This document shows, piece by piece, positions 1-20,326 of a stretch of 60,468 nt of DNA. The notes under the pieces are model-generated. The model did not search any database, was not told where the DNA came from, and saw only the letters and a list, made by a program, of their open reading frames with translations. Source of the stretch: a virus; the IMG/VR virus record IMGVR_UViG_3300025428_000005, positions 1 through 60,468 of that record, one strand, 5' to 3'. Made by a program: the position numbers and the translations under genes. How positions within the stretch are numbered: the stretch's first letter is position 1; each line of letters starts with the position of its first letter.

Positions 1-3000
1 ATCACTATCTATAGACTGTGGAGATATAGTAGTAACTGTATTACCTTTATTATCTACTACTGTAAATGCATGCTCTGTAGACTTATCTGAAGCTCTTAAA
101 TAAGCACTTCTACCGTGTAATAAGATATCATTTATTTCTTGTACATACTTATCACCTTGTGATAACTCTTTTGTAGGAAGTTCTAACTTATTAACATCTG
201 TACCAGAGATCATACCATCTTTAATATCTAACTTGATAGTATAACCTTCTTTCTTAGTAGTTAATTTACCTGACTCATCTTTGTTAAATATTGAAGATAA
301 CCAGTAACTATTCTCAGCTGTAACAGATTTTAAGTGTGGTAACTTAACGCACAACTCATCAAATGTCTTAGCTGTATTAATTGCAGATGTTATGATAGAT
401 AATCCGTTATGATAACCTATTGGATATACAGATTTCTTAGTAGCTGATAAGAAAGAAAGGTCTGTCACATCTTTTGTATGCCTTAAAGCTAAAGAGATAA
501 ACTTATTTATATCTGTTTTATTATCTGAGGTTTCACCATATAATGAAACTATGTCACCGCCATTTTGTAGGAGAGCTTGTTCTATACCACCTAATGCATT
601 AGAATACAATGAGTAGTCTTCTTTTAATTCATCTAAAGCTTCTGGAGATAAAGATATACCTATTTTATCTAATAACTCAGCTGTATTAAGGCTATGGTTT
701 GCTATAGCATCTAAAGTACTTTGGTCTAGTTTAAATTTACCATTTTCATCTAACGTAGATAAATATTTAGCTTGAGCTTTCCAATTATCTTTAATTATAT
801 TAGCCGCTGTTTGCTGTGTAAGATTGATTGAGTAGATCTTACCTGGCTTTTCTATACGAGTTGCATAAGAGCTAAACTTATTCTTAGCAAAATCTTGTCT
901 AAATTGAAGTATTTGTTGTAATTGTTGGTAAGAAGCATTCTTAATTGTACCTAATTTATCTGCTAATTGTTGATATACAGGACGTTCTTTAGCTATATTA
1001 GCTAGACCTTCAAGTATTTGTTCAGGTGTAGTTAATCCTGCTAAGTTGTTAAGTAGGTAATTATATGTCTGTTTGAAGTTAACTATATAAGGTAATCCTA
1101 AAGAGTTAAGTTTTAAAGTGCCATCTTCATTCATATCTAGCATAGATTGAATAAGTAGTTTAGTACTTAAACTTGTAGTGCTAAATGCACTCACTTCATT
1201 AGCTTCTATACCATAGTTTAAAGCTTCATCTCTAGTAACATTATCTTCTGCTTCTAAGTCTAATTCTTCTGTAGAAGCTTCTGCCTTTTCTTCTTTAGTA
1301 TATTCATCTTTAATAGTTTTACTAAAGTCAAGCATGTTAACTTTCTTCAACCATTCTTTAGTAACTAAATCCCAGTTGTCTAATACGTACTTAAATGTAC
1401 CTACTTTATCTGCCCAATCTGCATCTGTAGGATCTTGCTGATATAACTCAAACCATTTGTCGTACTGTTTCTGGATTCTTTTCTTAAGGTTGTTTATTAA
1501 AGCGCTTTGTTTAGTAGGAATATCCTCAATAGATAAGTCATTTTGGAATAAAGTATGTAAAAAAGCACCTGTCATGTAGTCTAACAAGTCTTTAGTCTTT
1601 CTAACAGATAGTCTACCTATACGATCTAAGGTTTTAAACTCTGTTTGACTTTGTACTCTTGCAGATTTATAATAACCTTTATCTAAACGTTTGTATAAAT
1701 CTTCAATAGTTCTTGGTGGTAAGTTTAATATTTGTCTAATCTTTTCTATTATATCATATAATTTCTTAAATAATATACTACGATTAGGAGCTCCTGGAAT
1801 AGGTTTTCTATCTAATTTATATTGAGCAAATTCTTCAGCTAAGAATTCTTCAGCATCTTTACTTGTAATTAAGGTTTTATTTAACTTCTTAGCTTCTGCA
1901 TATAATCTATTACGTTCTTCAGGTTTTAAGTACATCTGAGTTACAGCATGGAATGCTTCATGGTACAAAGTACCTCTAGCTGCTATATCAGATAATAGTA
2001 TCTTACCAGAAGCTAAAAATCTACCAAATGACTGACTGTCAATTAAGCCTTTTACGAGCTCTACAGGTATATCTGAAGGCATATTAGCTTCAAACCAATC
2101 GCGCTCTTCCTGAGTGATTAGAGACGCATCTACAACGTCTTTAGCTCGCCTATTTAAATCTTCATCATCTTCTAATGCTGCATCTTCAAGACTTGCTTTA
2201 AATGCACTAGCTAAAAGTTTAGCTTTTTCTTCAGGGCTTAAAGGGGCTTTAGGTTTAGCTTCTACTTTAGGAGCTTCATCAGCCATACTATCACTACTTA
2301 ACTCAGGGGCTATAGCTATAGTAGCTGGTGTATTACCTTCTTTAACCTCTTTTATTACTTCTTTTTTAGTAGGTTCAGTTGGTTTAACCTCTTCTTTTAC
2401 AGAAGGTTTTTCAACTACTTTACCAAAGTTTCTAACATAAGATAAAATAACCTCTTTACTAGCTATAGGAAATGCATCAAATTCTGCAAAATCCTCAAAC
2501 ATAGTAGATATACTATCTAAAGTAGCTTGTTTTCTACTAGGATTTTTTACTAAGGCTTTAAGTTTATCTTTTAGTACAGCAAATGCTTGTTTAACATCTG
2601 AGGGTTTAGTGCCAAATTGTTTAGCATCTGCACTAATAGTCTTTGGGTCAAAGTTATCTATTACAGATTCTACTTCAGCAGGTAGTGCTGATGGAGTTGT
2701 ATCTTTTGTAGACTCTGCTACTTCAGGATTATAAGCTAACGCGCTTTTTCTATAAGAATCAAAACTTCCAGTATTTTCTGTAGGTTGTAAGAATTGTTCT
2801 ATATCTAAATTAAAATTCTTTAAATTAGACGCTTTAATGAGGTTTTGTACTTGTGAGTGTGTTTGTATTACTACAGCTCCTGGAGCTTGTATAGCTATTT
2901 TAAATGATTTTATAATACGATTTTTAAAGGTATTAAAAGATTCACCTGTTTCACCTATTCTTTCATCCCATCTTGAAGGGTCGCGTACTACTTCTTCTTG

Positions 3001-6000
3001 TAATTTTTTAAGAGCTTTACTATCTGTACCTTCTAACTTACCTATATCCCATGTAGAGAAGTCTGCTTTTTTAGTAGTACTTTCTACATCTAAATTAGGA
3101 AATATAATCTTTAATGTATCTTTAGCTCTACTAAGATATGAACAAAATACACTCGCCGGAGTAGTTAATACTTTAGCGAATTGCTTATGTAATTTCTCAG
3201 CATCTTTTCTACCTTCTTCATTGATGGTAGGTGTCAAATTTGTAGTACCTCTAGCTAATCCTTGGTTGTTAAAATCTACGTCACCATGTCTTATTACATG
3301 CACACCATCTTCAGCTAAAGCTTCAACTTCAGAAACATCTTCAACTAAAGCTGTTTTACTATTACTTGCACTTTTAGCTAAAGCTTGTTTAGCGCTAAAT
3401 GTCTCTGTATCTAATTTTTCATAAGGTGGTTCTGGGGCAAAATGTAAGTATTGTTGTACTACAGAAGGCTCTCCTGCATCATTAGGCATTACTTTAGTAG
3501 TGAATAAAGGACTTTCACCTGCTACTAAGAATTCAGTATATGTAGTAGATTTACCCGTAATAGGGTTTACAAAAGCTTGAGAGTTCATGTGCTTACTTTT
3601 AGCACTAACTAATTTATTCTCTTGTAACCATTGGCTTATACGAGACTCTAACTCTTCTCTACTTTCTTCTGTAACATCACTCTTATGAATAACATTACCT
3701 ACATCAGTACCTAGTACTATAGAATCTTCTAAGTAAGATATAGTATGTGCTTTATACCCTTTCTTATTAGTACCAAGCATTATAAACTTCTCTATATCTT
3801 CTTTATCTGCTTCTGTAAGACCATTTGGTGACTGCAATGCACTCACTAAACGTTTAGCTATAAATGCAGCTTCAGCAGAATTAACAAAACGTGCTTGTAA
3901 AGGCATTACTTTTTCATTCTTTATAACTGCATATAGCGTACCTACTTTACCAAATACATCATCTGTAATACGCGCTAAGCCATTAACACCTGTAGCAGGT
4001 AGTACTAAGTTAAACCTATTAGGATAGAATAATTGATTAAAGCTCTTAACTAAACTACCTATAACACTAAACCTAGGTATTTTACCTTCTACCGCTTCTC
4101 CATCATTTGGTATACCTGCAGAACGTTTAACTATAGGTAGGTAGTATTTACCTTTCTCTGCAGTACACGCTCTTTTAAACTTAACATAAGCCTCTTTTCT
4201 AGGAAGTCTTTTTGAATCGCTCATTACGATACTTCCATTTATGCTACCTACATTCTCAACAGAAGGTATTGTAGACCAAACTATTTTACCATCTGCAGCA
4301 CCTTTAATAGGTGTACCTTCTTTATCAGTTATAACTAGCCAAATACCTTTAACATCAGGCTTCTCTTTATCTGCCTTTTGTTTAGCTGCTAACTCTTCAG
4401 GAGTATAATCAGCTAGTATTTCAGCCATTAATTTTTTAACTAATGTATCTTCAGAACTCTCATGTACAACAAGTAGTTTATTATTCTCTGTAGGCGAAGA
4501 TAAACTTTCTACAGTTCTGAAGAATCTATTTCTAGATACTGATTGACCATCATCTAATCCAGATGCAGTAGTGAACTCATTTCTTTTTCTACGAGTAGAT
4601 AGTATAGTTGAAGGTTTTTCTGGGTCATATTCTCCAGTGAATAATTCTTCATCAGAATCTATTAATTCTAAGCTATGATTCTTATATAAGTCCGCAGGAT
4701 TATCATTTGTGCTATCTGATACTTCTATTTTAGGAGCTTTAGTAGATTCCTCTTTAGATTTTTCAGCTTTTTTGGTAGCTTCTTTTACTATAGTTTTTTT
4801 CTGCTTTTCTAATTCTTTTAACGCTTCTGCATGCTTATCCTCTATCTGTTTTAATTCTTCAGCTTTTGCCTCAGGATTTAACGTAGTGTCTTTAGAATAT
4901 TTATCCTCTATAGTTTGCGCATCTTTAGCTTTTTGTTCTTCTAAAGATTTTTGTTTATCCTCTATATCTTTTAACTTAGTATAAGTAGGGGTTAGTTCTT
5001 TAACCCTCTTAGTTACTTGCTTTACCGCAGAAATAATATTTTCAGGGTTTAGTACTTTAGTATAAGAATCTTTTACTAGTTTTAACTCTTCTTGAGAAGA
5101 TTCGTATAACTTCTTTAATTTATCTATAGTATCTTTATCTGCAGGTAACTCTGAACTTTCTGCTTCACTTAAAGCTTTAGATAATTTCTCAGATTGGGTT
5201 TGCCAAAAAGTCATTTTAGAACCTAATCCAAATAACACAGCTTTAGTTTGTGCTATAGAATTACCTACTTGAGCTTTCTCTTCGTCTGATAATTTATCAG
5301 TATTTACTTTTATATTAGCGTTCTGAATTCTAGTATTAATACGCTCTAATCTTTTTACAGTTTCTAGCATATTATTTAAATGCTGTTCTACTGTAATCTT
5401 TTTTCCTGTAGTTTTATCTAAAACTTCTTTCTCTGTACCTTCTGTACTAAGTAATTGCTCATGTTGAGCTTTAATCATATCAGTTAAAGCTTTAGCTCCT
5501 CCTGGTTTATTTAACCATTCATAAGCTAAAGATTCTATAGTATTATGGTTAGATAGGTCAACTAACATTTGCCCAGAAGGGCCTTCTAAAGTTTGCCCTG
5601 CTTCATTAAGCATTTGATTTAACTTAACTTGGCTTTCTTTTGATGCACTAATCGCGGCTTTTACACCATCTATTCTAGGTTTTACACCATCTACTTTTGT
5701 AGATCCATCAGGATTTTTAGCTAAGAACCCATCAGTTAAACCTTGTAATAAATGTAAATGACTATCGTATAAACTATGTAAGTCTTGTATTTGCTCTCTA
5801 GTAGTTTTTTCACCGTTAGCTAATCTATATTGATGCATAGCTACACCAGCTAAAGAGGTTATAACACCTTGTACAGTACCTAATACTGTATTAGCCCCCA
5901 TGTTTTTATCATCACTAGACCACCAATCTTTAGTAATAGATTGTATTGTAGAAGGTAGGTTTTCTTCATCACTTTTACCTTCATAAAGTTTTTCAAAGTA

Positions 6001-7110
6001 ATTACCTATAGCTACTTGATATCTTTCATTCTGACCATGTTCTAACCCTGTTAAAGCTGCTTTACCTATAGTAGTACCTACTTTGCTAAGTAGAGAAGCT
6101 TCTTCTGGTAATGCTTTTTTACCTACTTTACCCGCAGTTGTTTCAAAGGCATCTTCTAATAGTTTAGAGGTGCCTTTAAATGACCTATACAGCTGTGGAA
6201 ACTCTACAACCATATTAAGCAAAGTAAGTGGTATATTCGCTTTAAACGTAGCCACAGCAGCTTCTGCAGACTTTGTCTCTATTTCTTCATCAGATAAACC
6301 ATTCTCTGACTGATGCTCTTTTAAATAGTTTTTTACAGCTACTTGAGATTCTCTACCAGATAACGCTGGTTGTGTAATTACACCTTGAGCGATCATCTCA
6401 CCTCTTGTAAGATTCTTAGCCCAACTTATTGCAGCTTTATCGACAGCTGCATCTAAAGTACCCATTTTACCTGCAGCAGCCATAACTTTCATACCGTCAG
6501 CTAAAGATGTAGCACCTCTAGCTTCTAAAACTTTAGCTAAACCACCTGCTAAACTAATACCTCTTTCAGCCAACATACCTGGAGCTAAAGTAGCTACAGT
6601 TAAAGCAAGCCTATCTATACCATCATCTAACCACCAACCAGTATGCGCTAGTTTACCAAACATACTAGCTTCATCATAACCTCTACTCTTATATATAGGA
6701 AATTCTTTAGATACATAATCTTTTAATTCATCTGAAGCTTTAACTGCCCAGTTATCAGTCATACCTGATATACCTTCAAAAGGTACAGTTAAAGCGCCAC
6801 CTAAAAAGCCTGCAGTTTGTCCTAGATATGCAGCAGTTTTACCTATTAGGTTAGCTCCTGCATTACCTAATTGGTCTAGTGCAGATTGTCTATCCTCTCT
6901 TAAGTAATCATTATTTATATCATTCTTTAATTGGAAATGGTAGTCATTTGGATTTACACTAGAAGTAGTACCTTTACCAAAGGCTCCTGCAGCATCACCT
7001 TGTACCTCTTCTTGTGTAGGTAAACTAAGCTTAATTCCAGTAGATGGTGTTGTATTTTTAGGGGTATTACTAGTTGAATCTTCTTGAGAAGGTAGGGTAA
7101 TTTTAGGCAT
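1..7110 (-). CDS. Giant internal virion protein with histidine-phosphatase and HExxH metallopeptidase domains (partial)
   Basis: One reading frame stays open from the ATG at 7110 to the left window edge (2370 codons without a stop), so the C-terminus is missing. The N-terminal third has Gly/Ala-rich hydrophobic stretches; a charged coiled coil lies near the middle. A histidine-phosphatase (phosphoglycerate mutase-like) domain spans about residues 1270-1425, with the RHG triad at 1274-1276 and a THS histidine at 1418. A zinc peptidase motif HEAFH is at 1717-1721, with Glu1759 and Glu1760 placed as a possible third ligand. It is the last of three very large genes at the end of the structural block, the place where crAss-like phages encode proteins packed in the capsid and ejected with DNA. 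Ejection and roles of the domains are inferred. The unseen C-terminus could hold more domains, such as a virion RNA polymerase. Confidence 0.8.
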   Translation of the reverse strand, partial: MPKITLPSQEDSTSNTPKNTTPSTGIKLSLPTQEEVQGDAAGAFGKGTTSSVNPNDYHFQLKNDINNDYLREDRQSALDQLGNAGANLIGKTAAYLGQTAGFLGGALTVPFEGISGMTDNWAVKASDELKDYVSKEFPIYKSRGYDEASMFGKLAHTGWWLDDGIDRLALTVATLAPGMLAERGISLAGGLAKVLEARGATSLADGMKVMAAAGKMGTLDAAVDKAAISWAKNLTRGEMIAQGVITQPALSGRESQVAVKNYLKEHQSENGLSDEEIETKSAEAAVATFKANIPLTLLNMVVEFPQLYRSFKGTSKLLEDAFETTAGKVGKKALPEEASLLSKVGTTIGKAALTGLEHGQNERYQVAIGNYFEKLYEGKSDEENLPSTIQSITKDWWSSDDKNMGANTVLGTVQGVITSLAGVAMHQYRLANGEKTTREQIQDLHSLYDSHLHLLQGLTDGFLAKNPDGSTKVDGVKPRIDGVKAAISASKESQVKLNQMLNEAGQTLEGPSGQMLVDLSNHNTIESLAYEWLNKPGGAKALTDMIKAQHEQLLSTEGTEKEVLDKTTGKKITVEQHLNNMLETVKRLERINTRIQNANIKVNTDKLSDEEKAQVGNSIAQTKAVLFGLGSKMTFWQTQSEKLSKALSEAESSELPADKDTIDKLKKLYESSQEELKLVKDSYTKVLNPENIISAVKQVTKRVKELTPTYTKLKDIEDKQKSLEEQKAKDAQTIEDKYSKDTTLNPEAKAEELKQIEDKHAEALKELEKQKKTIVKEATKKAEKSKEESTKAPKIEVSDSTNDNPADLYKNHSLELIDSDEELFTGEYDPEKPSTILSTRRKRNEFTTASGLDDGQSVSRNRFFRTVESLSSPTENNKLLVVHESSEDTLVKKLMAEILADYTPEELAAKQKADKEKPDVKGIWLVITDKEGTPIKGAADGKIVWSTIPSVENVGSINGSIVMSDSKRLPRKEAYVKFKRACTAEKGKYYLPIVKRSAGIPNDGEAVEGKIPRFSVIGSLVKSFNQLFYPNRFNLVLPATGVNGLARITDDVFGKVGTLYAVIKNEKVMPLQARFVNSAEAAFIAKRLVSALQSPNGLTEADKEDIEKFIMLGTNKKGYKAHTISYLEDSIVLGTDVGNVIHKSDVTEESREELESRISQWLQENKLVSAKSKHMNSQAFVNPITGKSTTYTEFLVAGESPLFTTKVMPNDAGEPSVVQQYLHFAPEPPYEKLDTETFSAKQALAKSASNSKTALVEDVSEVEALAEDGVHVIRHGDVDFNNQGLARGTTNLTPTINEEGRKDAEKLHKQFAKVLTTPASVFCSYLSRAKDTLKIIFPNLDVESTTKKADFSTWDIGKLEGTDSKALKKLQEEVVRDPSRWDERIGETGESFNTFKNRIIKSFKIAIQAPGAVVIQTHSQVQNLIKASNLKNFNLDIEQFLQPTENTGSFDSYRKSALAYNPEVAESTKDTTPSALPAEVESVIDNFDPKTISADAKQFGTKPSDVKQAFAVLKDKLKALVKNPSRKQATLDSISTMFEDFAEFDAFPIASKEVILSYVRNFGKVVEKPSVKEEVKPTEPTKKEVIKEVKEGNTPATIAIAPELSSDSMADEAPKVEAKPKAPLSPEEKAKLLASAFKASLEDAALEDDEDLNRRAKDVVDASLITQEERDWFEANMPSDIPVELVKGLIDSQSFGRFLASGKILLSDIAARGTLYHEAFHAVTQMYLKPEERNRLYAEAKKLNKTLITSKDAEEFLAEEFAQYKLDRKPIPGAPNRSILFKKLYDIIEKIRQILNLPPRTIEDLYKRLDKGYYKSARVQSQTEFKTLDRIGRLSVRKTKDLLDYMTGAFLHTLFQNDLSIEDIPTKQSALINNLKKRIQKQYDKWFELYQQDPTDADWADKVGTFKYVLDNWDLVTKEWLKKVNMLDFSKTIKDEYTKEEKAEASTEELDLEAEDNVTRDEALNYGIEANEVSAFSTTSLSTKLLIQSMLDMNEDGTLKLNSLGLPYIVNFKQTYNYLLNNLAGLTTPEQILEGLANIAKERPVYQQLADKLGTIKNASYQQLQQILQFRQDFAKNKFSSYATRIEKPGKIYSINLTQQTAANIIKDNWKAQAKYLSTLDENGKFKLDQSTLDAIANHSLNTAELLDKIGISLSPEALDELKEDYSLYSNALGGIEQALLQNGGDIVSLYGETSDNKTDINKFISLALRHTKDVTDLSFLSATKKSVYPIGYHNGLSIITSAINTAKTFDELCVKLPHLKSVTAENSYWLSSIFNKDESGKLTTKKEGYTIKLDIKDGMISGTDVNKLELPTKELSQGDKYVQEINDILLHGRSAYLRASDKSTEHAFTVVDNKGNTVTTISPQSIDSD

Positions 7111-7120
7111 AAATTAAATA

Positions 7121-9316
7121 TTATTTATGTGTATTCAACTTAGACATAGCTGCGATAGCATCTGCTCTAGTGTTGTAGTAGTTAGTAGCTCCATTTAAAG
7201 TTAATGCATATCTATCAGAGTTACCTGGAGCATTCGCTACATTACTTTCTGGAATTCTGGTAATAGTTAATGGATTTTGCCCATCTGGTGTTAATTGAAG
7301 TACACTTGTACCGTTAGGATTAGCTTCTGCTTTAGAGATTTCTTTATTAGCTAAATATTGTTGTACAGGTACTTCACCGTGTAGTAATAGATAAGATTCT
7401 ACTCCTTCAGGAGCTTTAACACTTATATAATCACCTAATGAAGCTTTTTCACCTTTAGATTTCTCTCCTTCAGCGCGTAGTATAATTCTCAACTCACCAT
7501 TAACATAAGAGTATCCTAAGTTTTCAGGTGATACAGCTTTTATTTTACTATAATCTTCATCTGATTCTAATGGTTTACCTGTAGCTAAATAATTAGCTCC
7601 TAATGCCCCATTTGTATTTAAATGTGTAGACATTATATCTGCAAGACCTTTAGCTACATTTTTATCTTCAAAAGTAGTGACACCTAAAGTTTGTGTTTTA
7701 GTTTTAGCGTTTTCTTCTAACGCACCCATGTACTTTTTATAGTTCGGGTCTTTACCTTTTAAATAAAGAGCTTTTTGTTCCTTTAGCTTTTTATAATCAG
7801 CCTCTATAACTTGTATTTCACTTTCTTGATTATATGGTGAAAGGCCAAGAGTCATATTTTTGTGCATATCTTTAACATTGGCTAAGGCATATTTATACGC
7901 ATCATCTAAAGACGCTTGTTTACCAGAATTAATTAATATGTCTTGTGCAAATTTTAGGTATTCACTAGCTCCGATATAGTTTATTACAACGTTGTCTGCT
8001 TCTTTAACTAAGGCTTGTGGAATTTGGTAGCCTTCTAACCCTGCAGCACGTTTTATCTTATCATCATAAGCTTGGGTATCTTTAGCTACTTTATTATTCT
8101 GATGTATCTCCATTAAGTATTGAGATAATGCATCAGCTTGAGCGCCTGTAGCATAAAATTGAGATAACTTGTAATCAGTTAACCCATCTGACATAGCTTT
8201 AAGCATCAATAATTGACCATCAGTAAATAGTTTTTTACCTTGAGGATCTTTAAACTCTAATGCTTTTTGATATACACTTTGATTTGCTTCTTTAGAAGCT
8301 TGTACTTTATTTGCTATATCTGTAGGAGTTTTAAACTCACTACCTGCTACAGCGGCTTGTACTGGTACTGTGAAAGGTATTTGTAAAGCATCTGCCTTAT
8401 GTTTAGCCATTAACTTAGCTTCTTCAGACTCTTGTAGATCAGTTATTTCATGGTCTACATTTTTGTAAGCCATAGCATTGGCTACATTATGTACTGTATT
8501 ATGGAGTAAGTTTTGTATATACTCATTTCTAACTAGATCTTTAGGTTTTCTTTGTATTGCAAATCCATTAGCATCTACACCCATTTCTTGGTAACCTCTA
8601 GTAGCTAAATCTGCATCTTGTTTAACGTAAGACATAGCTGCGGGATCAGATAATACATATTGTAAACCCATCTCTCTAAGTCTATCTTCTGTTAAGGTTT
8701 CTGTACCATCTTTAGACACATAGATATAATCACCACTAGGAGTAATTTTAGACTGAAGATTTTTCTCAGCTTTAATTTTCTCCATACCTTTAGCAGCTAA
8801 TTCTGCTAAGTTAACATCTTTAGCCGCTGCTATACCATTAAACCCACCTTTATCTGCACCTTGGTAATCTTCTAAACTAGCTGCAAATAACTTATCTCTT
8901 TTTTCTGAGGATATAACTTGCTTATCATATAGAGAATCTAGCTCTTTCTTATAAGACATAGCCGCATCATAGTTACCTTGCAATTTACCTATAGTACCAT
9001 TTTGCCCAAAGCTATCTAATATTTCTTGTTTAGTTTTATGAAATTGTCTTCTTACATTAGGGTCTGTCAAATCTACATTAGGATCTCCAAAGGCTTCTAA
9101 TTTTTTATGATAATCAGCTTTAGCTTGTTCAGCTAATTCTTTATCTTTAGATAAGCTATTAAATTGTTTACCCATTAACTCATTATACGAAGCTTCTTCA
9201 TTATCATGAAGTTGTTGTTTAACAGCTCCTGCATGAGCAATCATATTAAGATCTAATGGTACAAATTGATCTACGTATTGTTGAGATCCTGGTCTTGTAA
9301 AACTATTAACTGCCAT
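7121..9316 (-). CDS. Large internal virion (cargo) protein, helical
   Basis: A 731-residue protein rich in Lys, Glu, Gln and Ala and predicted to be mostly helical, with no signal peptide, membrane segment or catalytic motif that I recognise. It starts at ATG 9316, only 1 nt after the TAG stop of the upstream gene, so the two are translationally close. Position between a GG-repeat protein and the giant peptidase/phosphatase protein, at the distal end of the structural operon, matches the cargo proteins of crAss-like phages. Function is inferred from position, size and composition only. Confidence 0.7.
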   Translation of the reverse strand: MAVNSFTRPGSQQYVDQFVPLDLNMIAHAGAVKQQLHDNEEASYNELMGKQFNSLSKDKELAEQAKADYHKKLEAFGDPNVDLTDPNVRRQFHKTKQEILDSFGQNGTIGKLQGNYDAAMSYKKELDSLYDKQVISSEKRDKLFAASLEDYQGADKGGFNGIAAAKDVNLAELAAKGMEKIKAEKNLQSKITPSGDYIYVSKDGTETLTEDRLREMGLQYVLSDPAAMSYVKQDADLATRGYQEMGVDANGFAIQRKPKDLVRNEYIQNLLHNTVHNVANAMAYKNVDHEITDLQESEEAKLMAKHKADALQIPFTVPVQAAVAGSEFKTPTDIANKVQASKEANQSVYQKALEFKDPQGKKLFTDGQLLMLKAMSDGLTDYKLSQFYATGAQADALSQYLMEIHQNNKVAKDTQAYDDKIKRAAGLEGYQIPQALVKEADNVVINYIGASEYLKFAQDILINSGKQASLDDAYKYALANVKDMHKNMTLGLSPYNQESEIQVIEADYKKLKEQKALYLKGKDPNYKKYMGALEENAKTKTQTLGVTTFEDKNVAKGLADIMSTHLNTNGALGANYLATGKPLESDEDYSKIKAVSPENLGYSYVNGELRIILRAEGEKSKGEKASLGDYISVKAPEGVESYLLLHGEVPVQQYLANKEISKAEANPNGTSVLQLTPDGQNPLTITRIPESNVANAPGNSDRYALTLNGATNYYNTRADAIAAMSKLNTHK

Positions 9317-9317
9317 A

Positions 9318-12203
9318 CTATTTAGGTTGTGTTAAATCTAATTTTTTACCAGTATACCTATGTACCCAATCACCTGTTTGTTCATTATAGTCAAAATCTG
9401 GGTACATACCAGCTATAGTTTTAAGCATTAGATTTTGGTTAGCATTTTGAGTATAATTTCTAGCTTGACCCATAGTATTTTGTCCTATAGCGTTAAGCTT
9501 ATCATAATACTGTGTAAGAGCTTGACCTTTATTACCAGCTTCTTGCTGCATACTTTGTATATCTAATCCTTTATTGTATTGTGCAAATTGATTTTTAATA
9601 TTTGATATATTATTTGCTGAATTTTCATCAATACTAGCTAAAGCTTTATTTGTATTACCTTGAACACCTTGCACACCACTCATATAAGCTCCAGCATTAC
9701 CATTAGAGTTATGCTTTAAATAATATGAAGTTGCAGCACCTTGATCTCTTACATCTTGTCTAGCTCTATTATATTCAGGTAATACAGGATTAACTTGACC
9801 GTAGTTTACTCTATCATAGTTCTTACCTTGATCATTCAAGTAAGCTAAATTACCTACATTACTTCCTAAAAAGGTTGCGGCTTGACCTAAACCTTGAGAG
9901 GCATACTTACCCCATATATTAGGTTGCTGTGTAGGAGGTGTATTAGTATTAGGACTTGCAGAATTTTGAGACATTACACCTTTGTAGAAGTTTTGATTTG
10001 CTATATCATCAGGTGTTGGTTGATTATAACCTGTATCTCCGTAATGTCCTTGTAATATTGTAGGGTTTTGTATTGCATTAGCATAAGCAAATCTATCATC
10101 ATCTGTCTGATCTACCATAGTGTTTTGCCCACCATCCCAGAACATAGGCAATTGACCACCTTTCTTATACTTACCTAAGTAAGGATTAACACTTCCTATA
10201 CTACCTTCTTTGAAGTATGTACCGCCTAGTTTAAATTGGTCTTTAGCATTCTTTTGAGCTTTCATAGCTTCTTGTGTTTCAAATAACTGGTCTAAAGCTT
10301 GTTCATTATTTTTACGCATTAAACTAGCTGTTTTCTTTTGTAGATCATCTGATTCTTTAGAGTCTAATATCTTATCCCACTTATTATTTTTAAATTTCTC
10401 AGCTACTTTTGCAAATGTTTGTTTAGTATTTGGGTCTTTTAAATGATCACTAAATATCCTAGTACCTGAAGGTAAGTTTAAGTCTATACCTCCTTGTGCA
10501 TGTGAAGGTGCATTTACTTGATCTGTACCTCCATTAGGATATTGCATTACTTCATTCTTTTCTAATTGAGCGTTAGCTCCTGGTTGGTCTTGTGTAAGAC
10601 GTTGTGTACCTCCTAATTCAAACATCTGCCCACTAGTACTCATAACTGGAGTCTCTCCTCCAAACTTATAAGCACTCCACATCTTACCTCTATCTTTATA
10701 TTTTAATCCTGTAGAAGGATTAACTCCTACATTATATTTTGTTGTATCACTTGTAGTATAAATAGGTTCACCGTATGAATTATTTGCATCATCTGGTAAA
10801 GTATATTTTGTTTTAGGCTCTATACCATAACCTGTGTTAGGATTTATAGTGTTATTTGCTGAAGATTGGTGGTAACCACCGTTTGCGTATTGTGGTACTA
10901 CATAGTTAGGATTGTTGTATGGATGTCCTGAAGGATCTATACTATTGTTTACATTAGTACCTGTTTTATATCCATTTGCAGCAAACCAATCACCTTGTTT
11001 ACCTCCTTGTAGTTGAATACCTGTACCTGTCTTTTTAGCATAATCCATTGCTTCATACTCTGTCTTAAATGGCTTTAATTGACCATTCTCTCGTACTATG
11101 TAAGGAAATACATACCCTTCACCATTATCACCCATTAAATGAGTTGATCTTTCAGGTTGGCCTTTAACTTTAATAGATGGTGCATTTTTTTCATATAAAC
11201 GTTTAACCCAATCTAAATTCTGGTTAGCATTTAATACGCTATCTACATAAGCTTTTTTGTCTGTGTTAAAATAATTTGTAGGTACATCTCCCCCATCTGA
11301 ATAGATTATAGGAGTATTTAACTGCATATATCTATTATCTCCCCAAGTATTTAACATACCTCCATTAGAAAATGTACTCATAGCTCCTTTAGAAGTATCT
11401 AAACTCATAGGGCCTAAATGCTCACCACCTTCTTCGTAAATTAACCCACCATTCTCATGTTTCCATGATTTTGCATTCTTTGCGAATTGCGCCATCTTAC
11501 GTACATGAGAATCTTTAGAATGTAAAGCTTCTTCTGTAGTTTTACCTGTACGTTTTTTATAATCTGTAAATCTACCTTTATGTGAAGATTTTATATGTAT
11601 ACCACCATCTTTATATTTCTCAGTAGATTTATCATACAGCACACCATCAGGATAGTTAAGTTTACCTACTTTATTAGGTTGGTAATCATTATAACCTCCC
11701 CAATAAGCACCTTGAATACCTCCATCTTGAAAGTATAGTTTAGCGTTATTCTGTAGATCCTGATGTTCATTATAATGAGTCATACCTCCATTACGCATTG
11801 TAACAGGTGTATTAGGTTGCATACCAGACATTACACCTTGACCTACACCTTGTGTTGCAGATCCTATAGTACCCGGTGTAACTACACCAAATGCCATATC
11901 TCCTACTGCACCAGCAGCTTGACCATAACCATATATAGACTTCTGCTGATTAGTCATAGGTCCTGCAAACTTTTGTATTGCATTACCTACACCTGGTACA
12001 AATCCACTCGCTATACCTCCAACTGCACCTAATGTACCAGCTTCTATATCCCCCCATGTACCCCCATCTAAAAACATAGGCATGAATCCACCTCTCCTAA
12101 ACTGGGTAGGGTCATTTGCGTATGCTAAATCAGGGCTTAAAGGAGGGGTTTTACGGGCTGCCTGATTGCGTTTAGTAGGACGAGAGGTGGATTTTTTAGC
12201 CAT
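9318..12203 (-). CDS. Large internal virion (cargo) protein with many GG motifs
   Basis: A 961-residue protein with a basic N-terminus. About nineteen Gly-Gly doublets, many as NGG or DGG, occur every 30-60 residues through the first 700 residues. A block PMFxDGG occurs near both ends (about residues 42-48 and 690-705). The motif HIKSSHKGRFTDYKKRTG lies near residue 200, and a segment reading SHAQGGIDLNLPSGTRIFSD near residue 565; as I recall, both types recur in crAss-like cargo proteins. The last 250 residues are Gln/Asn-rich and helical. It ends in TAG immediately before the next ATG. It has its own promoter (12216-12247). GG motifs may be processing or packing sites; this is a guess. Confidence 0.75.
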   Translation of the reverse strand: MAKKSTSRPTKRNQAARKTPPLSPDLAYANDPTQFRRGGFMPMFLDGGTWGDIEAGTLGAVGGIASGFVPGVGNAIQKFAGPMTNQQKSIYGYGQAAGAVGDMAFGVVTPGTIGSATQGVGQGVMSGMQPNTPVTMRNGGMTHYNEHQDLQNNAKLYFQDGGIQGAYWGGYNDYQPNKVGKLNYPDGVLYDKSTEKYKDGGIHIKSSHKGRFTDYKKRTGKTTEEALHSKDSHVRKMAQFAKNAKSWKHENGGLIYEEGGEHLGPMSLDTSKGAMSTFSNGGMLNTWGDNRYMQLNTPIIYSDGGDVPTNYFNTDKKAYVDSVLNANQNLDWVKRLYEKNAPSIKVKGQPERSTHLMGDNGEGYVFPYIVRENGQLKPFKTEYEAMDYAKKTGTGIQLQGGKQGDWFAANGYKTGTNVNNSIDPSGHPYNNPNYVVPQYANGGYHQSSANNTINPNTGYGIEPKTKYTLPDDANNSYGEPIYTTSDTTKYNVGVNPSTGLKYKDRGKMWSAYKFGGETPVMSTSGQMFELGGTQRLTQDQPGANAQLEKNEVMQYPNGGTDQVNAPSHAQGGIDLNLPSGTRIFSDHLKDPNTKQTFAKVAEKFKNNKWDKILDSKESDDLQKKTASLMRKNNEQALDQLFETQEAMKAQKNAKDQFKLGGTYFKEGSIGSVNPYLGKYKKGGQLPMFWDGGQNTMVDQTDDDRFAYANAIQNPTILQGHYGDTGYNQPTPDDIANQNFYKGVMSQNSASPNTNTPPTQQPNIWGKYASQGLGQAATFLGSNVGNLAYLNDQGKNYDRVNYGQVNPVLPEYNRARQDVRDQGAATSYYLKHNSNGNAGAYMSGVQGVQGNTNKALASIDENSANNISNIKNQFAQYNKGLDIQSMQQEAGNKGQALTQYYDKLNAIGQNTMGQARNYTQNANQNLMLKTIAGMYPDFDYNEQTGDWVHRYTGKKLDLTQPK

Positions 12204-12297: not shown

Positions 12298-15200
12298 TTA
12301 ATACGGCGCAGGAGTGTATCCTGTATATACATCATGTAGTACAAACTTCTTATTTGAGTTGTTTTGGAACCACAGTTCTACATACATATATTTATCCCTT
12401 AACCTAGCCTGTAAAGCCGGACTAACGCCTTCAGGTTGAGTAGTTACATCTCTACCTACCTCTAAATACCAACTTCTAAACTTACGTCTTAAATTAGTGC
12501 CTACAACTAATGGTGTAGGAGCTCCAGTATTCTGATAATCAGTAGAATACCTTACAGCAGTAACTGATTCTTGTAAGAAGTTAGGTGCGTAAGAAGTATC
12601 TACACCTGTTATACTTACTTCAGTTTGTAGTATTAAATTGTTAAATGTTTTAGTAGTTTCTGCTGACTCGCCTACTAAGAACTTAATATACGCTGCAGTA
12701 TAAGTACTTTGGTTGTAGAACTGCCCATAGTTACCATAATCATGTACGTAGAAGTTACTTGGATTACTAGGATCTGATGACAAAGCAATATACTTATCTG
12801 TCACGTAGAGGCTAGGAGTTGCACTATAAAAAGTAGTGTATCCATCAACATGATCACTATATGCAAGTGTTTTTTTAATCCCATTAGTACCATCCAGGTA
12901 TGTGTGTATAGCTTCATTGTACTTGTAGTCATAGTAGCAGGAAATCCCAGTTCCATTTAAAGGGTTATCTGTTTTAAGTATATCGTATTTTATGTTTTTA
13001 TCAAAAAATGAGTGCATTCCTTTAGTATCTGATAGAGGTACTACACCTTCACCAGTATATCTTATTTGCTTATTAGATAGTACATCATACCAATAGAACC
13101 CTTTATCTGTAGTTAATATACTCCATTGATGTTTAGATCCATGTTTAGTTGAGATATACTCATGCTTATCTAACGTACTACCTGTACCTAATACAAGCTC
13201 TGTATTTGAACCATCAGGTTGTAATACTTTACGGTTAACAGGTTGGTAACCAAATGCGCTATCTTGCCAGAAGAATAGTCTATTAGAAGATACAGATAGG
13301 TTGTTTATCGGTCCATAGATACTATCTACATCATGATATGCATTAGGTTTAAATATACTCCAACTATCTGTTAATTCACCATTTATCTTAACTTCTGAAT
13401 TAGCTATACGAGAATCAAATGTATCCACTTCTACAAAAGGTATAGGTGTAGGTATGTAAGAAACTAAGTCATTCTCGTTTAAGAAGCTTGTATTGTAGTT
13501 AAAGTTTTCTGTGTAGTTTAAGTATCCAGAAAAAAAGTCTTTATTTGGGGTAGTTATTTGATAATTACCACTACCATCTACCCAGAAAAACTGATTGTTT
13601 ACGCCTGTTACATTAAGACTTGAATTAAAAGAACCATTCTTTTGACGTAAATTTGTGTTTATACAAGTTTCTGTTACGTAAAAATAAGATATAGAAAAAC
13701 TACTTCCACCTGGATTACTTAAACTTTGCACGTATGGTTGTGTATCTGTACCGCCTCTTAATGCTTTACGCTTAGTATTTTCATCTACTAAATTAACATA
13801 TGTATCACCACTAAATATCGTATTATTATATACACCTACTGAAGTAACAGGTTGGTACTGGTTACAAGATATGTAGGTATTATTAGATTTAGCTTGATTT
13901 GTATTACCACCATATTGATTAGTGACTTGTCTATTATAGGATATTAAAGGTCTAGCTGATAATTCGTTTACACCTAAAAGTGTAAAGTAATTAGTACTTA
14001 CTACAAAGTTATCGTATGAGTAGAATCTATTGTTTAAAGAATCTACGTAAGAAACTTTATCTTTACCTACAGAATTGTTGGCTAATCGTAAACCTTGTAC
14101 AGGACCACCTTGTATAGCGTATCTTTGGCTGTATGAACCTAACCCATTTGTATTATAAGCTGTTTGTAGGTTAGGTATAGGATTAATTCCTGAAGAGTTT
14201 AAATCCCAACCACCTGTATTTGGATTATCAAAAAAAGAACTTATTTTACTTGTGTTATTTACAGTTATACAAGTATTTAAATGTGACGCTGTGCCAGCTC
14301 CATTAGCAAATACTGTATTATAGTATTTAGCTATATATCCATAAGGTTTTATATTCTGGCCGCCTCCTGTAGCACCATATGTAGGCTGTCCAAAGAAAGC
14401 GCCGGTATTATAACCTCTTATGTCTCCACCTTTTGGTAAATCTGAACTTACATAATTTACATCTTGTAAGCAATCTATTACTTTAATATAATCATTTTGA
14501 GCCCAATTAATACCGTCAAATACTCCATAAGTAGTTTCAGGTGAAATTAAAGAAGCTACAGCCATATGCGTAGCTTTAGGTATACTATAATTAATACTTT
14601 TAAAGCTTTGTAGGTAAGGTCTAGCTACAGAATTACCTGATACACTCATATCATCAATAAACGTCTCTGCAGGTTCTAAAAGGCCTACAGCTAGTACAGT
14701 TTTATCTTGTTGAGATCTTTTAACGCGTACTATAGAATATCCTGATACGTAAGGTAACAGTTTAGAGGTTACGTTTATTTTAAAGTTTATGTTTAAAGAG
14801 TTTAATGAGTATGTAGTTGCATTTGGATCATATTGCGATAAAGGGAAGGCACAAGTTAAATTACTTGTATTACCTACAGGCATGTAAATACTAGGCATCT
14901 TTATATCACCAATCCATTGTACGAAGTAAGCATATCCTGATTTGTCAAAGAATTGTATACCAAATCTATATGTCTCATCTCTTTGGAAACCTCTTAAAGT
15001 GGTTGATAGATAAGGTGACCCAGAATCTATTACATGCACATTAGAGTCTGAAGCTACGTAAGTTCTACCATCGTAAGTTAATTGAGTACCTGTTACAGTT
15101 TTAGACTTAAAAGTATCTGATGTAGTACCTAATGAGAAACCTTCCCAATTAGTAGCTGAAGCACCTCTCTGTACGTATGGAGGTCCTGTTAAGCCTTTAG

Positions 15201-16836
15201 CTCCGGGGAAGTCAAAAGGTATTTTAGTCATGCTAAATGTATACGCTACATCGCATGTAGTAAATGTAGGATCACCTCCACCTAAGGTTACACCATCTGA
15301 TTGATATAAGTAACTACCAGCATTAGCTGTTTGGTTAGGGTTTATATTATCTACATTTGAATATGTTTGCTTATTATAGTTATAACGTAAAGCTATAGGC
15401 CTAAAAACACTATTTATAACTGTTCTATTAGAAGCTTTTACATTACCTAATAATAACATATTATCTTTAGATACAAGTGTTTTAGCTTGTCTTATAGTGG
15501 CTGTAGGAGTAACTATTTCTGTTAAAGTAATAGGAACTTCTTTATTAGTTGAAGAAGTTCCGCTATGACTAAATGTATAAGTACCTGATGTTTTATTAAT
15601 AGGTATATCAGTTAGAAACATTGCAGTATTATCTGCCGTAGCTTCTAACGATTGTTTTCTCGCGTAGGCTATATTTATTGTATCGTAAGATGTGTCTATA
15701 TTTGAAATATAACCATTTATTGTTTTAGTAGTTATAGTAGTTACTAAAGTACCAGTTTGTGTAGGGTAGTTAACGTCTATAGTTGTATCTGCAACGATCT
15801 CAATACCTGGACTAAAAGGTGCCCAAGGTGTAGATGTACCTTCTAACTTGTTAAGTTGATATGTATAGTAATATATACCACACGGTAATTGTCCACCAGA
15901 TGTTATACCTGTAATTACAGGAATATCTAATGTAGTTTTAGATACTATAGAGAATAGACTAGGATCTATAAAAAACCCATTAGGATCTGCTATATTAAAG
16001 GATCTTATGTCGTAGTAAAAGTCACACCAATATATCTTTTGTATTGTAGGCTCTTCATAATTAGCTACTATAGCATTAGGTGCTACAGGAGATGCTGTAC
16101 TAAAGTCTAATAAGTTGTTGTACTTAAGAGTTAAAGTAAATATACCATTTGGTGTACCTGGTACATTTGTAGGTTGATTTATATTTTGTAGTAATGCTTT
16201 ATCGTAAGTTACAGTCCAGATTTGTGAAGGGTTTACACCTGTGTGAATATTAACTAAACTGCTTGTAGTAAGTAATATAATAGTATCACGTAATACAGTA
16301 TACCCTATAGGCACTAAATTAGTTTGTGCTGCTATTATTTTATTTGTAGAACCTAACGTAATACCTGCTGGGCCTACAGTAGAAGATAGGAATAAAGTAG
16401 TTATATCAATAAGTGTACTAGAGTATAAAGTAACAGATACTTGATTGCTATAAGCTACAATACCTAATGAGGTATAATTAGTATTTAGATATACAGCTAA
16501 ACTATCATAGATATTACCTATAACAGGAACTATCCAAGGTGTAGAAGCTTTAAAAGTATTTATAGCTACAGCTATACTAGAGTATCCAGTTGTAGGAAAA
16601 TTAGTTATTTGCCAAACACTACCTGTATTAGGTATAGTGAATGCATAGCTATTACCTCTAATATTAGCTACTGTACCTGTTGAAGTACCACTGTCTGTAA
16701 CTAATCTAATATCTAAAGCATCGTCATAATACTCACCGTAAGATGTTACAGATTTTGCTGTAGATTGATATGCTTGTAACTTAGTTTTAGCTAAATCTTT
16801 ATTTAAGCATCTAAATATGTTTCTTGATTGTGGCAT
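12298..16836 (-). CDS. Large tail protein (crAss-like tail stabilisation/muzzle type)
   Basis: A 1512-residue, beta-rich protein full of Thr, Ser, Asn, Tyr and Gly, with no membrane segment. The N-terminus contains a short basic helical stretch followed by long predicted beta regions. It follows the P22 gp4-like tail tubular gene by 26 nt; in crAss-like phages this slot codes for the large tail stabilisation or muzzle protein forming the distal tail. The call rests on size, composition and gene order. Receptor-binding segments cannot be excluded. Confidence 0.65.
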   Translation of the reverse strand: MPQSRNIFRCLNKDLAKTKLQAYQSTAKSVTSYGEYYDDALDIRLVTDSGTSTGTVANIRGNSYAFTIPNTGSVWQITNFPTTGYSSIAVAINTFKASTPWIVPVIGNIYDSLAVYLNTNYTSLGIVAYSNQVSVTLYSSTLIDITTLFLSSTVGPAGITLGSTNKIIAAQTNLVPIGYTVLRDTIILLTTSSLVNIHTGVNPSQIWTVTYDKALLQNINQPTNVPGTPNGIFTLTLKYNNLLDFSTASPVAPNAIVANYEEPTIQKIYWCDFYYDIRSFNIADPNGFFIDPSLFSIVSKTTLDIPVITGITSGGQLPCGIYYYTYQLNKLEGTSTPWAPFSPGIEIVADTTIDVNYPTQTGTLVTTITTKTINGYISNIDTSYDTINIAYARKQSLEATADNTAMFLTDIPINKTSGTYTFSHSGTSSTNKEVPITLTEIVTPTATIRQAKTLVSKDNMLLLGNVKASNRTVINSVFRPIALRYNYNKQTYSNVDNINPNQTANAGSYLYQSDGVTLGGGDPTFTTCDVAYTFSMTKIPFDFPGAKGLTGPPYVQRGASATNWEGFSLGTTSDTFKSKTVTGTQLTYDGRTYVASDSNVHVIDSGSPYLSTTLRGFQRDETYRFGIQFFDKSGYAYFVQWIGDIKMPSIYMPVGNTSNLTCAFPLSQYDPNATTYSLNSLNINFKINVTSKLLPYVSGYSIVRVKRSQQDKTVLAVGLLEPAETFIDDMSVSGNSVARPYLQSFKSINYSIPKATHMAVASLISPETTYGVFDGINWAQNDYIKVIDCLQDVNYVSSDLPKGGDIRGYNTGAFFGQPTYGATGGGQNIKPYGYIAKYYNTVFANGAGTASHLNTCITVNNTSKISSFFDNPNTGGWDLNSSGINPIPNLQTAYNTNGLGSYSQRYAIQGGPVQGLRLANNSVGKDKVSYVDSLNNRFYSYDNFVVSTNYFTLLGVNELSARPLISYNRQVTNQYGGNTNQAKSNNTYISCNQYQPVTSVGVYNNTIFSGDTYVNLVDENTKRKALRGGTDTQPYVQSLSNPGGSSFSISYFYVTETCINTNLRQKNGSFNSSLNVTGVNNQFFWVDGSGNYQITTPNKDFFSGYLNYTENFNYNTSFLNENDLVSYIPTPIPFVEVDTFDSRIANSEVKINGELTDSWSIFKPNAYHDVDSIYGPINNLSVSSNRLFFWQDSAFGYQPVNRKVLQPDGSNTELVLGTGSTLDKHEYISTKHGSKHQWSILTTDKGFYWYDVLSNKQIRYTGEGVVPLSDTKGMHSFFDKNIKYDILKTDNPLNGTGISCYYDYKYNEAIHTYLDGTNGIKKTLAYSDHVDGYTTFYSATPSLYVTDKYIALSSDPSNPSNFYVHDYGNYGQFYNQSTYTAAYIKFLVGESAETTKTFNNLILQTEVSITGVDTSYAPNFLQESVTAVRYSTDYQNTGAPTPLVVGTNLRRKFRSWYLEVGRDVTTQPEGVSPALQARLRDKYMYVELWFQNNSNKKFVLHDVYTGYTPAPY

Positions 16837-16862: not shown

Positions 16863-17786
16863 CTAGTATTTCCTACCAAACAACAATCGTTCTTTAGAAC
16901 CTAAAGTAGCGTAGAAATTATCGTGTAAATTAATCTTAGGTATAAGTCTTAGGATATTTTGAGCTATACTTTGCATTTGGTCATACGTAGGTATTCTACC
17001 TTTAGTAGTAGCTGCACCACAATACCAAGCCCACTCTCTTTCTGAATGTTCATAAACATCTTTAGGTACTAGATTTCTCCTCCAGGCAATGTAATCTAAC
17101 TTCATTGTAATATAGCATTTAACAGCCATCTTAAACTTAGTATCATCTGGAATCATAGGAAAGCCTTTTTCATCAATTGGAAAAGCTTTATAGGCCATTA
17201 TAACACCATAACCATCTCTAAATGAAGTAAAGATATAGTTATCGTTTATCCTGTATGTAGCGTCTGTTAAAGAGCTTGTAACACTAGCTGTACCTGCAAG
17301 ATACTTAGACAAAGTAACATTCTCATCATTCATAAAGTTGAATGTTGGATTACCATTCGCATCTTGACCTATAGGTGTATTTGTATCATAGTATTGTGAA
17401 TCTACAGCAAATGTAGAATTACCGTAAGGTGAATTATCTATATCTGTTGCAGGTGTTAAAGGTGCTATAGTTTGATGTGGTCCTAACTTACATTCAAATA
17501 CTGGATGTAATGAATCATTGGTATGCCTCATAGGAAATAGTAATCCTCCTTTAGTGTACCCTGCTACTTGTGTAACATAACGTAGATCACAAGGTAAATC
17601 ACCTCTGTAATCATTAACACATATTATAGCTACTTCATCTCTGTATGTTTGAGGTATACCGATTAACTCTATACTTTCAAAACACCATTCTACGGCATCT
17701 TGCCAGTTAAGATCTGTTGTACCTGTATCCCTGAAAACATTACGAATCACCTCGAAGCAAGATACATATTTACCATTTAAGGCCAT
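16863..17786 (-). CDS. Tail tubular / head-to-tail ring protein, P22 gp4-like
   Basis: A 307-residue protein whose N-terminal helical segment (residues 5-50, with NWQDAVEWCFESIELIG near 26-42) is followed by a beta-rich middle. The pattern is that of the crAss-like tail tubular protein related to P22 gp4, which extends the portal channel. It sits between small neck genes and the giant tail protein, with 10 nt to its upstream neighbour, in one operon. No enzymatic motif is seen. Confidence 0.65.
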   Translation of the reverse strand: MALNGKYVSCFEVIRNVFRDTGTTDLNWQDAVEWCFESIELIGIPQTYRDEVAIICVNDYRGDLPCDLRYVTQVAGYTKGGLLFPMRHTNDSLHPVFECKLGPHQTIAPLTPATDIDNSPYGNSTFAVDSQYYDTNTPIGQDANGNPTFNFMNDENVTLSKYLAGTASVTSSLTDATYRINDNYIFTSFRDGYGVIMAYKAFPIDEKGFPMIPDDTKFKMAVKCYITMKLDYIAWRRNLVPKDVYEHSEREWAWYCGAATTKGRIPTYDQMQSIAQNILRLIPKINLHDNFYATLGSKERLLFGRKY

Positions 17787-19465: not shown

Positions 19466-20326
19466 TTAAGATAAGTACTTTATTGCTGCAGAATAACCTG
19501 ACAAATAAAGCGATTCTTTTTCTATAGAAGTTATTTTAAAATCTGTAGCAGATATACCTAACGAATCTACTAGGATAGTACGTTGTAAATCTTGCTTAGA
19601 TTTGGCTAATACACTATTTTGAGCATTCAAAGACATATTTACTAGAGCTATAAAGTACTTTTTAATGTTACCTTTACCTATTTTATCTAGAGGTTGTGGC
19701 TGCCCTAAGTCACCAAAGTGTACTCCTAAGGTCTCAGGATTTGGACCATCTTCATCAAATGCTCCTATAGGGTAATTTAAGGACACTCCTGCATCTACAT
19801 AAGTCTTACCTGTGTTAGGTATTACAAATGCTTGAAAGAAGCCTGGAATAGCCATAGAGGCTCTTATAGCGTAGATGATAGGCATACTAGGTGTAAGATG
19901 TGCATCAAATTGATCTACAGATTGTGTATCTAAACAAGATGCAAATACAGTTAGTTCTTTATAGCCTTTATCTTGTAAGTCTTTGAAGGTAGTTAACTCA
20001 TTACCTGTTTTATCTTTAACTAATTTCTTAAGCCAGTTTAAGAATGTACTACCAGGGTTTACGCCGTAATTTAGTATAATAGATGGTATATTCCACCAGC
20101 TACCATCTTCAAAGGTAGAGAAGTCTGTGTTACCTATTATTGTTTTAATCTCTAAAGGAGTATAACCTAGGCATATTAAACTACCTACAATAGATCCTGC
20201 GGAACTACCACCAACTCTTTTAACGTTAGATGATAGCCCCTTTGAATCTATGGCAGCCCATGCCCCAGCTTCTGCAATACCCCTTATACCACAGCCTACT
20301 AGTACTAAATTACGTATAACTACCAT
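19466..20326 (-). CDS. Patatin-like phospholipase
   Basis: A 286-residue patatin-family acyl hydrolase. The catalytic pair is visible: nucleophile Ser42 in GGSSAGS (GxSxG) and Asp178 in VDAG. The oxyanion-hole loop is GCGIRG (11-16). Length is that of a bare patatin domain. No signal peptide is seen, so the enzyme is probably made in the cytoplasm and would need membrane damage to reach outer lipids. It follows four small membrane or membrane-associated proteins with 4-nt spacing and sits between the fibre/lysis region and the neck genes. A role in breaking host membranes at lysis is inferred; a role during entry as a virion enzyme is the alternative. Confidence 0.85.
   Translation of the reverse strand: MVVIRNLVLVGCGIRGIAEAGAWAAIDSKGLSSNVKRVGGSSAGSIVGSLICLGYTPLEIKTIIGNTDFSTFEDGSWWNIPSIILNYGVNPGSTFLNWLKKLVKDKTGNELTTFKDLQDKGYKELTVFASCLDTQSVDQFDAHLTPSMPIIYAIRASMAIPGFFQAFVIPNTGKTYVDAGVSLNYPIGAFDEDGPNPETLGVHFGDLGQPQPLDKIGKGNIKKYFIALVNMSLNAQNSVLAKSKQDLQRTILVDSLGISATDFKITSIEKESLYLSGYSAAIKYLS

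Follow-up and report, generated by a model that had tools for sequence, protein, structure and literature searches.

The gp47-type locus of a crAss-like phage

We analysed a 60,468-nt stretch of viral DNA (the window; IMG/VR record IMGVR_UViG_3300025428_000005, positions 1 to 60,468), which by its sequence is a contig of a crAss-like phage and in which profile searches found crass-like marker genes for the muzzle, ring proteins, capsid protein, portal and terminase. Few viruses of the human gut are as abundant as crass-like phages. The left end of the window is occupied by a giant ORF (Table 1) that lacks its C-terminus because the reading frame leaves the contig at position 1. In relatives the missing part is the RNA polymerase core; the polymerase DxDxD motif lies at ~2616-3163 in the crass-like contigs L105, L107 and L033, and the window ORF ends at 2370 aa. 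The gene order muzzle - gp45 - gp46 - gp47 was common to the contig and crAss001, with the giant ORF in the gp47 position. Sequence similarity to crAss001 gp47 was limited to ~120 aa around a zincin-like metallopeptidase domain, which carries the conserved YHExxH and EExxAExF motifs of gp47-type proteins; Y-H-E..H and EE..A..F were invariant in nine crass-like giant proteins. A whole-protein scan returned no near relatives. A plus-strand ORF at 2837-3424 was rejected as a gene candidate, being the antisense of the histidine phosphatase (HP) domain described below and having no support of its own.

Mass spectrometry of crAss001 virions detected gp45, gp46, gp47, gp49 and gp50, and gp47, which belongs to the RNA-polymerase block and is carried as cargo in virions, has been modelled as ejected (PMC10172136). 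From the synteny with gp47 we infer that the giant ORF product is probably packed in the particle and ejected into the bacterium.

Table 1 Giant ORF, its domains and residues, and neighbouring genes in the window
Feature	Position	Strand	Basis or remark
Giant ORF, at least 2370 aa	1..7110	-	Positional counterpart of crAss001 gp47; BLAST to L033, L105-L107
Zincin-like metallopeptidase domain, HEAFH 1717-1721, EEFLAEEF 1754	1621..2043	-	Conserved motifs
Variable linker slot, residues ~1231-1652, holding the HP module	2155..3420	-	BLAST segments, alignment
Predicted histidine phosphatase branch 1 domain, residues ~1264-1471	2698..3321	-	PF00300; family HMM; fold
H1418, second catalytic-pocket histidine (THS)	2857..2859	-	His in 16/17 aligned sequences
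T1353 (FSTWDIG), site of the Glu general acid in canonical HPs	3052..3054	-	Alignment to PhoE 1h2e, family table
R1328, second phosphate-binding arginine (YLSRAKDT)	3127..3129	-	Invariant in 17/17 aligned sequences
RHG motif, R1274-H1275-G1276	3283..3291	-	H1275 is the predicted phospho-accepting histidine
Conserved N-terminal region, residues 49-639	5194..6966	-	29.8% identity, E 2e-60 to L033 (closest)
gp46-like ORF	7121..9316	-	By position, synteny with crAss001
gp45-like cargo protein 1	9318..12203	-	Synteny; weak similarity, 42% over 69 aa, E 7e-6
Crassvirus muzzle protein	12298..16836	-	PF25731 E 5.5e-121
Crassvirus tail ring protein 1	16863..17786	-	PF24228 E 7e-63

Fold and catalytic residues of the HP domain

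The initial annotation had placed an HP domain at residues ~1270-1425 of the giant protein, with RHG at 1274-1276 and a THS histidine at 1418. Both motifs were found exactly as numbered; the domain was present but longer than proposed, the family HMM matching residues 1264-1471 (iE 1e-55, with a profile that includes the window sequence itself). PF00300 (His_Phos_1) matched residues 1271-1430 with an E-value of 1.8e-19 (70.6 bits versus a cut-off of 21.7) and reached 5.5e-22 in a six-frame search. The AlphaFold2 model of the domain (pLDDT 81.7, pTM 0.79) showed the HP fold, aligning by VIA-align with PhoE (1h2e) over 179 residues at a Z-score of 18.4 and an rmsd of 2.8, and other solved HPs matched as well. 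The pattern RHG...R...[TS]H at HP spacing occurred in 1 of 2000 shuffles of the giant protein. By profile and predicted fold, the proposed domain is confirmed as a branch-1 histidine phosphatase.

The nearest solved structure, PhoE/YhfR of Bacillus stearothermophilus (1h2e/1ebb), shares with the domain the fold over ~180 residues, the RHG nucleophile, the second Arg and the second His. However, identity to PhoE is only 19%, the Glu general acid is lacking, and whereas PhoE is a free metabolic enzyme, the HP here is one domain of a giant phage polyprotein. The nearest NCBIfam model, TIGR03162 alpha-ribazole phosphatase (CobC), scored 55.5 bits, below its cut-off of 162.9. All 17 aligned HP sequences matched PHROG_12933, a phage family with no assigned function that gives no hint of giant-protein or permuted HP forms.

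In the AlphaFold2 model R1274, H1275, R1328 and H1418 were all in place. Across the 17 aligned sequences, at ~25% overall identity, the nucleophilic His and the second Arg were invariant and the second His was kept in 16. The conservation of the catalytic residues, which the initial annotation had proposed to check, extended to all four core positions (R, H, R, H) in 14/17 and broke down at one position each in three eroded members, an R having become H in L002 and S in L025 and the second His being lost in L031. The Glu general acid was absent in 17/17, with Thr, Pro or Val instead (Thr1353 in the window); the domain lacks the Glu of the LxExxxG segment that marks PhoE/CobC-type phosphatases and was therefore not filed among them. 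The description of the domain as an intact phosphatase thus stood for the nucleophile and the phosphate-binding residues but, with the usual general acid missing, is unproven as a whole. Some active HPs, such as SixA, likewise lack the Glu general acid.

Insertion, distribution and permuted relatives

The HP module lies in a variable linker slot upstream of the conserved zincin. Colinear BLAST segments against the closest relatives, L105-L107, stop at ~1228 and restart at ~1653. The slot measures ~426 aa in the window, ~290 aa more than in two of the three (L105/L107, ~132-139 aa); L106 has a slot of ~337 aa. The HP domain was absent from L105-L107, whose slot sequence is non-homologous, indicating that the module was inserted. 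A phosphatase domain in the giant protein, as initially annotated, is therefore present here, but as an optional inserted module and no fixed feature of the protein class.

Within crass-like phages the module is sporadic yet recurrent. The HP domain was found in 1 of 80 sampled gp47-type contigs, a rarity indicating that crass-like phages do not generally need it for their life cycle; the polymerase DxDxD motif was present in the same ORF in 57 of these 80. The HP of L033 is colinear with that of the window, and its 4049-aa ORF encodes a zincin and the polymerase motif DFDID as well. In L142 it is appended at the C-terminus, and a 39%-identical relative (L174) lacks it. The domain occurred nowhere in crAss001 or the other reference crass phages tested, and PF00300 was absent from 37 capsid-relative contigs, most of which stop short of gp47. 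A tblastn search of INPHARED phages with the window HP domain gave no match; matches of its relatives to "Listeria phage LM", "Staphylococcus phage SA" and similar records were set aside as suspected bacterial contamination. Bacterial genomes scanned with a strict HP-family motif contained no relative, a strictness that leaves bacterial absence unproven, and PADLOC returned only weak, irrelevant matches. In the HP tree only the L002+L033 grouping was resolved (93/97) and the window sat on a long branch, so that single and repeated acquisition are indistinguishable.

About ten other crass-like contigs, L142 and L032 among them, carry the HP in circularly permuted form, with its halves swapped. 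The R, H, R, H core was kept in 9/9 aligned permuted sequences. Nine loci shared a common junction, and, once rotated, six of the nine sequences scored as a single uninterrupted domain; the common junction and these scores ruled out half-domains from a broken tandem pair. The AlphaFold2 model of the permuted L032 domain reached a pLDDT of only 54, because the alignment contained relatives of the first half only. We are aware of no description of a natural permutant in the histidine phosphatase superfamily; the permuted form, conserved in about ten crass-like phages, would be an unusual example of such a rearrangement arising naturally in a textbook enzyme fold.

Outside the giant proteins, several contigs have HP relatives that stand alone in head modules, between the genes for terminase, portal and major capsid protein; others are fused to XkdF-type prohead protease, DUF2213 or polyvalent-protein domains; one relative (L020) is combined with LPD23 and a metallopeptidase. 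As a separate observation, the Lactococcus garvieae prophage PLg-TB25 encodes a 198-aa protein annotated "histidine phosphatase".

Proposed role of the HP module

On balance, the HP is probably an accessory phosphatase effector module in a gp47-type cargo polyprotein, delivered together with the virion polymerase. As proposed for crAss001 gp47, the polyprotein would be packed into the particle and be ejected before the DNA or together with it, and the zincin, possibly a polyprotein-processing protease, may free the HP module from it. Early in infection H1275 would then accept a phosphate group from a small molecule, nucleotide or phosphoprotein of the host, and the phosphohistidine would be hydrolysed either by means of an acid that replaces the usual Glu or with no acid at all. 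The module would thus behave as an optional effector cassette carried along with the virion transcription machinery. A broader version is rather unlikely: canonical and permuted HPs together would form a mobile crass-like cassette. Inserted or appended at varied sites in the ejected virion-polymerase polyprotein and released by the zincin, it would in the opening minutes of infection destroy a phosphorylated host signal by Glu-less chemistry, for example a nucleotide used in defence or a phosphohistidine/phosphoprotein relay.

To our knowledge, roles of the crass-like giant ejected proteins beyond transcription are largely unknown. An HP with its nucleophilic centre kept, on the polypeptide class of the virion RNA polymerase, would offer a concrete, assayable early-infection activity. 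Polyvalent proteins, described from phages and conjugative elements (Iyer et al. 2017, PMC5512222), are likewise very large multidomain proteins combining a zincin with a further enzymatic domain, and the window ORF shares this build, with HP and zincin in one ORF; crAss001 gp47 shares gene order and zincin motif with it, but of the two only the window ORF has an HP domain. The words phosphatase and crAss are absent from the polyvalent-protein paper, and the open-licence literature yielded no description of HP domains in crass-like or polyvalent proteins, in agreement with the earlier remark that no case was known in this protein class.

Doubtful, but the first alternative to weigh, is a pseudo-phosphatase: having lost the general acid, the domain would turn over little or no substrate and would keep the HP fold to bind a protein or a phosphate ligand. 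The substitution of Glu in every aligned sequence and the loss of a further core residue in 3/17 fit such decay; retention of the nucleophilic His, the second Arg and, in all but one sequence, the second His at such low identity argues against it, as do the complete cores of the nine permuted sequences and the activity of Glu-less HPs such as SixA.

The head-module setting of the relatives is fitting for a particle-carried role, and a part in the assembly of particles would be consistent with it too. It is quite improbable that the HP acts as an assembly or maturation factor in the producing cell or procapsid, with portal, prohead protease or scaffold, as the stand-alone copies among capsid genes and the fusions to prohead protease or DUF2213 might suggest: the crass-like HP sits on an ejected-cargo/transcription polypeptide, and products of capsid-adjacent genes are often injected themselves, for example MuF-type proteins (PMC5512222). 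Very improbable is a service to the phage polymerase, with the HP controlling the enzyme's phosphorylated state or local nucleotide pools and having no host target. HP and DxDxD motif do share one ORF in L033, L142, L190, L192 and L196, but most crass-like polymerase polyproteins lack an HP, its place ranges from mid-protein to the C-terminus, and L032 encodes it on an ORF separate from the polymerase motif. A chance motif in a linker is virtually impossible, refuted by the PF00300 E-value, the Z-score of 18.4 and the independent relatives.

Fold and active site of the phosphatase domain

The initial annotation placed a histidine phosphatase (HP) domain, recognized by RHG and THS motifs, inside a giant internal virion protein, and both motifs lie where it put them. 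His_Phos_1 was the sole Pfam match of the window giant protein and PHROG_12933 (function unknown) its sole PHROGs match, while the three-part motif arose at HP spacing in 1 of 2000 shuffles of this protein. An AlphaFold2 model of the domain (pLDDT 81.7, pTM 0.79; input alignment of 17 sequences) bore out the predicted fold: Foldseek matched it to solved histidine phosphatases (best E 1.1e-9), and PhoE (1h2e) was both the top VIA-align match (Z 18.4, 179 residues, rmsd 2.8) and the first match for a profile built from HP relatives (E ~1e-31).

All four superfamily residues are present (R1274, H1275, R1328, H1418). Their conservation held in 14 of the 17 aligned sequences and failed in three, which carry HHG (L002) or SHG (L025) or have lost the second His (L031, possibly a pseudo-enzyme). 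The invariance of GESFNTF is by construction, since this string seeded two of the searches for relatives; neither of those two was seeded with RHG, the second Arg or TH. Thr1353 aligns with the general acid Glu of PhoE, a position occupied by Thr, Pro or Val in 17/17 sequences. Loss of this acid suggests an easy leaving group or a protein phosphohistidine-type substrate, or else another acid or slow turnover. The nearest models were small-molecule phosphatases (PhoE, alpha-ribazole phosphatase), whose equivalog cut-offs the HP did not reach. The window HP is a single sequence without close relatives, and branching in the HP tree was unresolved.

Features of the window and arrangements of HP domains in related viral contigs (L numbers)
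Feature	Source	Position	Remark
Giant ORF	window	1-7110 (-)	at least 2370 aa, open at contig end
His_Phos_1 match	giant ORF	residues 1271-1430	E 1.8e-19
RHG	giant ORF	residues 1274-1276
THS	giant ORF	residues 1417-1419
Patatin-like phospholipase	window	19466-20326 (-)	PF01734, E 5e-31; inside the crass-like phage's tail gene block
M15/VanY-type D,D-carboxypeptidase	window	25012-25494 (-)	probably endolysin
RIIA-like protein	window	59722-60468 (+)	right contig end
Stand-alone HP, portal upstream	L031	8432-9124	head module; CS replaces TH
Stand-alone HP, terminase-HP-portal	L016, L010
Stand-alone HP, portal-HP-capsid	L027
Stand-alone HP, portal then HP	L019
HP fused to XkdF-type prohead protease	L022, L025
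HP fused to ChaB	L022
HP fused to DUF2213	L030
HP fused to LPD23 plus metallopeptidase	L020
Permuted HP in crass-like giant proteins	L032, L142, L188, L189, L190, L192, L194, L195, L196		shared junction, core residues kept

The giant protein and its insertion slot

The contig encodes crassvirus muzzle, ring 1, ring 2, ring 3/4, major capsid, portal and terminase proteins, and its order of muzzle, gp45-like, gp46-like and giant ORF is that of crAss001 gp44-gp47. Nine crass-like giant proteins, among them the window giant ORF and crAss001 gp47, have a zincin in which YHExxH and EExxAExF are invariant; BLAST similarity between gp47 and the window ORF spans only ~120 aa, at the zincin.

The 4049-aa giant protein of L033 (contig of 147,916 bp, encoding muzzle and terminase of crass type) aligns with the window over its N-terminal 620 aa (30% identity, E 2e-60) and continues with an HP placed as in the window, the zincin and a polymerase motif (DFDID at 3163). 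Judging from this architecture, a polymerase core probably follows in the part of the window ORF that lies past the contig end. Over the zincin part, L105-L107 are closer to the window than L033 (34-38% over ~700 aa); by alignment, the window protein thus has a mosaic appearance, resembling L033 in its N-terminal part and L105-L107 in the zincin part. The L105-L107 alignments reach residue ~1228 and resume at ~1653, with nothing aligned between; the linker, which holds the HP in the window, has ~426 aa there, against ~337 aa in L106 and ~132-139 aa in L105 and L107. Because the flanks align and the linker does not, the HP is, on this comparison, a module inserted in a variable slot.

Particle association and possible role

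Mass spectrometry found gp45, gp46, gp47, gp49 and gp50 of crAss001 in the virion as cargo, and these proteins are ejected in the model for that phage (PMC10172136); zincins of this kind are thought to process polyvalent proteins (PMC5512222). By analogy with crAss001, the giant protein would be packed and ejected; the zincin might then free the HP, which would use phosphohistidine chemistry on a host target. Stand-alone HPs of the family lie within head modules, others are fused to the proteins listed in the table, and in L021 the HP starts a 2268-aa protein. This company of particle genes supports a particle-carried role for the HP in general; it is also compatible with action in particle assembly.

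Recurrence and circular permutation

Searching viral contigs for the conserved zincin yielded 213 related stretches. Among the best 80 of these, PF00300 occurred in one contig, L142 (116,928 bp, with a crass-type terminase at E 1e-98), solely in its giant ORF; it was absent from nine reference phages (crAss001 and eight Crassvirales or crass-like by capsid protein) and five long viral contigs. In L142 the HP follows the polymerase motif and is C-terminal; the L174 protein (39% identity to L142 over 3900 aa) stops before reaching it. L173 (98,692 bases) has a crass-like giant ORF of >5,400 aa with zincin and without HP.

In L032 and L142 the profile order is swapped (positions ~77-199, then 7-87), the halves being fused directly at ...SDNGIL.(I/V)ARHGETEDN. 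With both as queries, eight further crass-like contigs were found, all with a crass-type terminase match except L192, which has a clear muzzle. Nine permuted sequences align across one shared junction, and in 6/9 rotating them back gave a single uninterrupted match where there had been two partial ones (for example 80 to 135 bits for L142, 66 to 103 for L032). The permuted-set profile matched PhoE in two pieces of reversed order. The RHG Arg and His, second Arg and second His are invariant in 9/9, RHGETED having been one search seed. The predicted structure of the permuted domain was of low confidence. HP counts are contigs rather than independent events, because several contigs come from one and the same phage or from nearly identical ones (L187=L142, L191=L032, L197/L198, and the L009-L018 and L022-L029 groups).

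Polymerase motif and HP share one ORF in L142, L190, L192 and L196, and L197/L198 carry a canonical-order relative with RHGETEDN in an ORF of 665-738 aa. In L193 (contig 2651869516_000092) there are 12 TGA codons in the terminase frame, and stops break the permuted HP under table 11, which suggests that this phage reads TGA as a residue.
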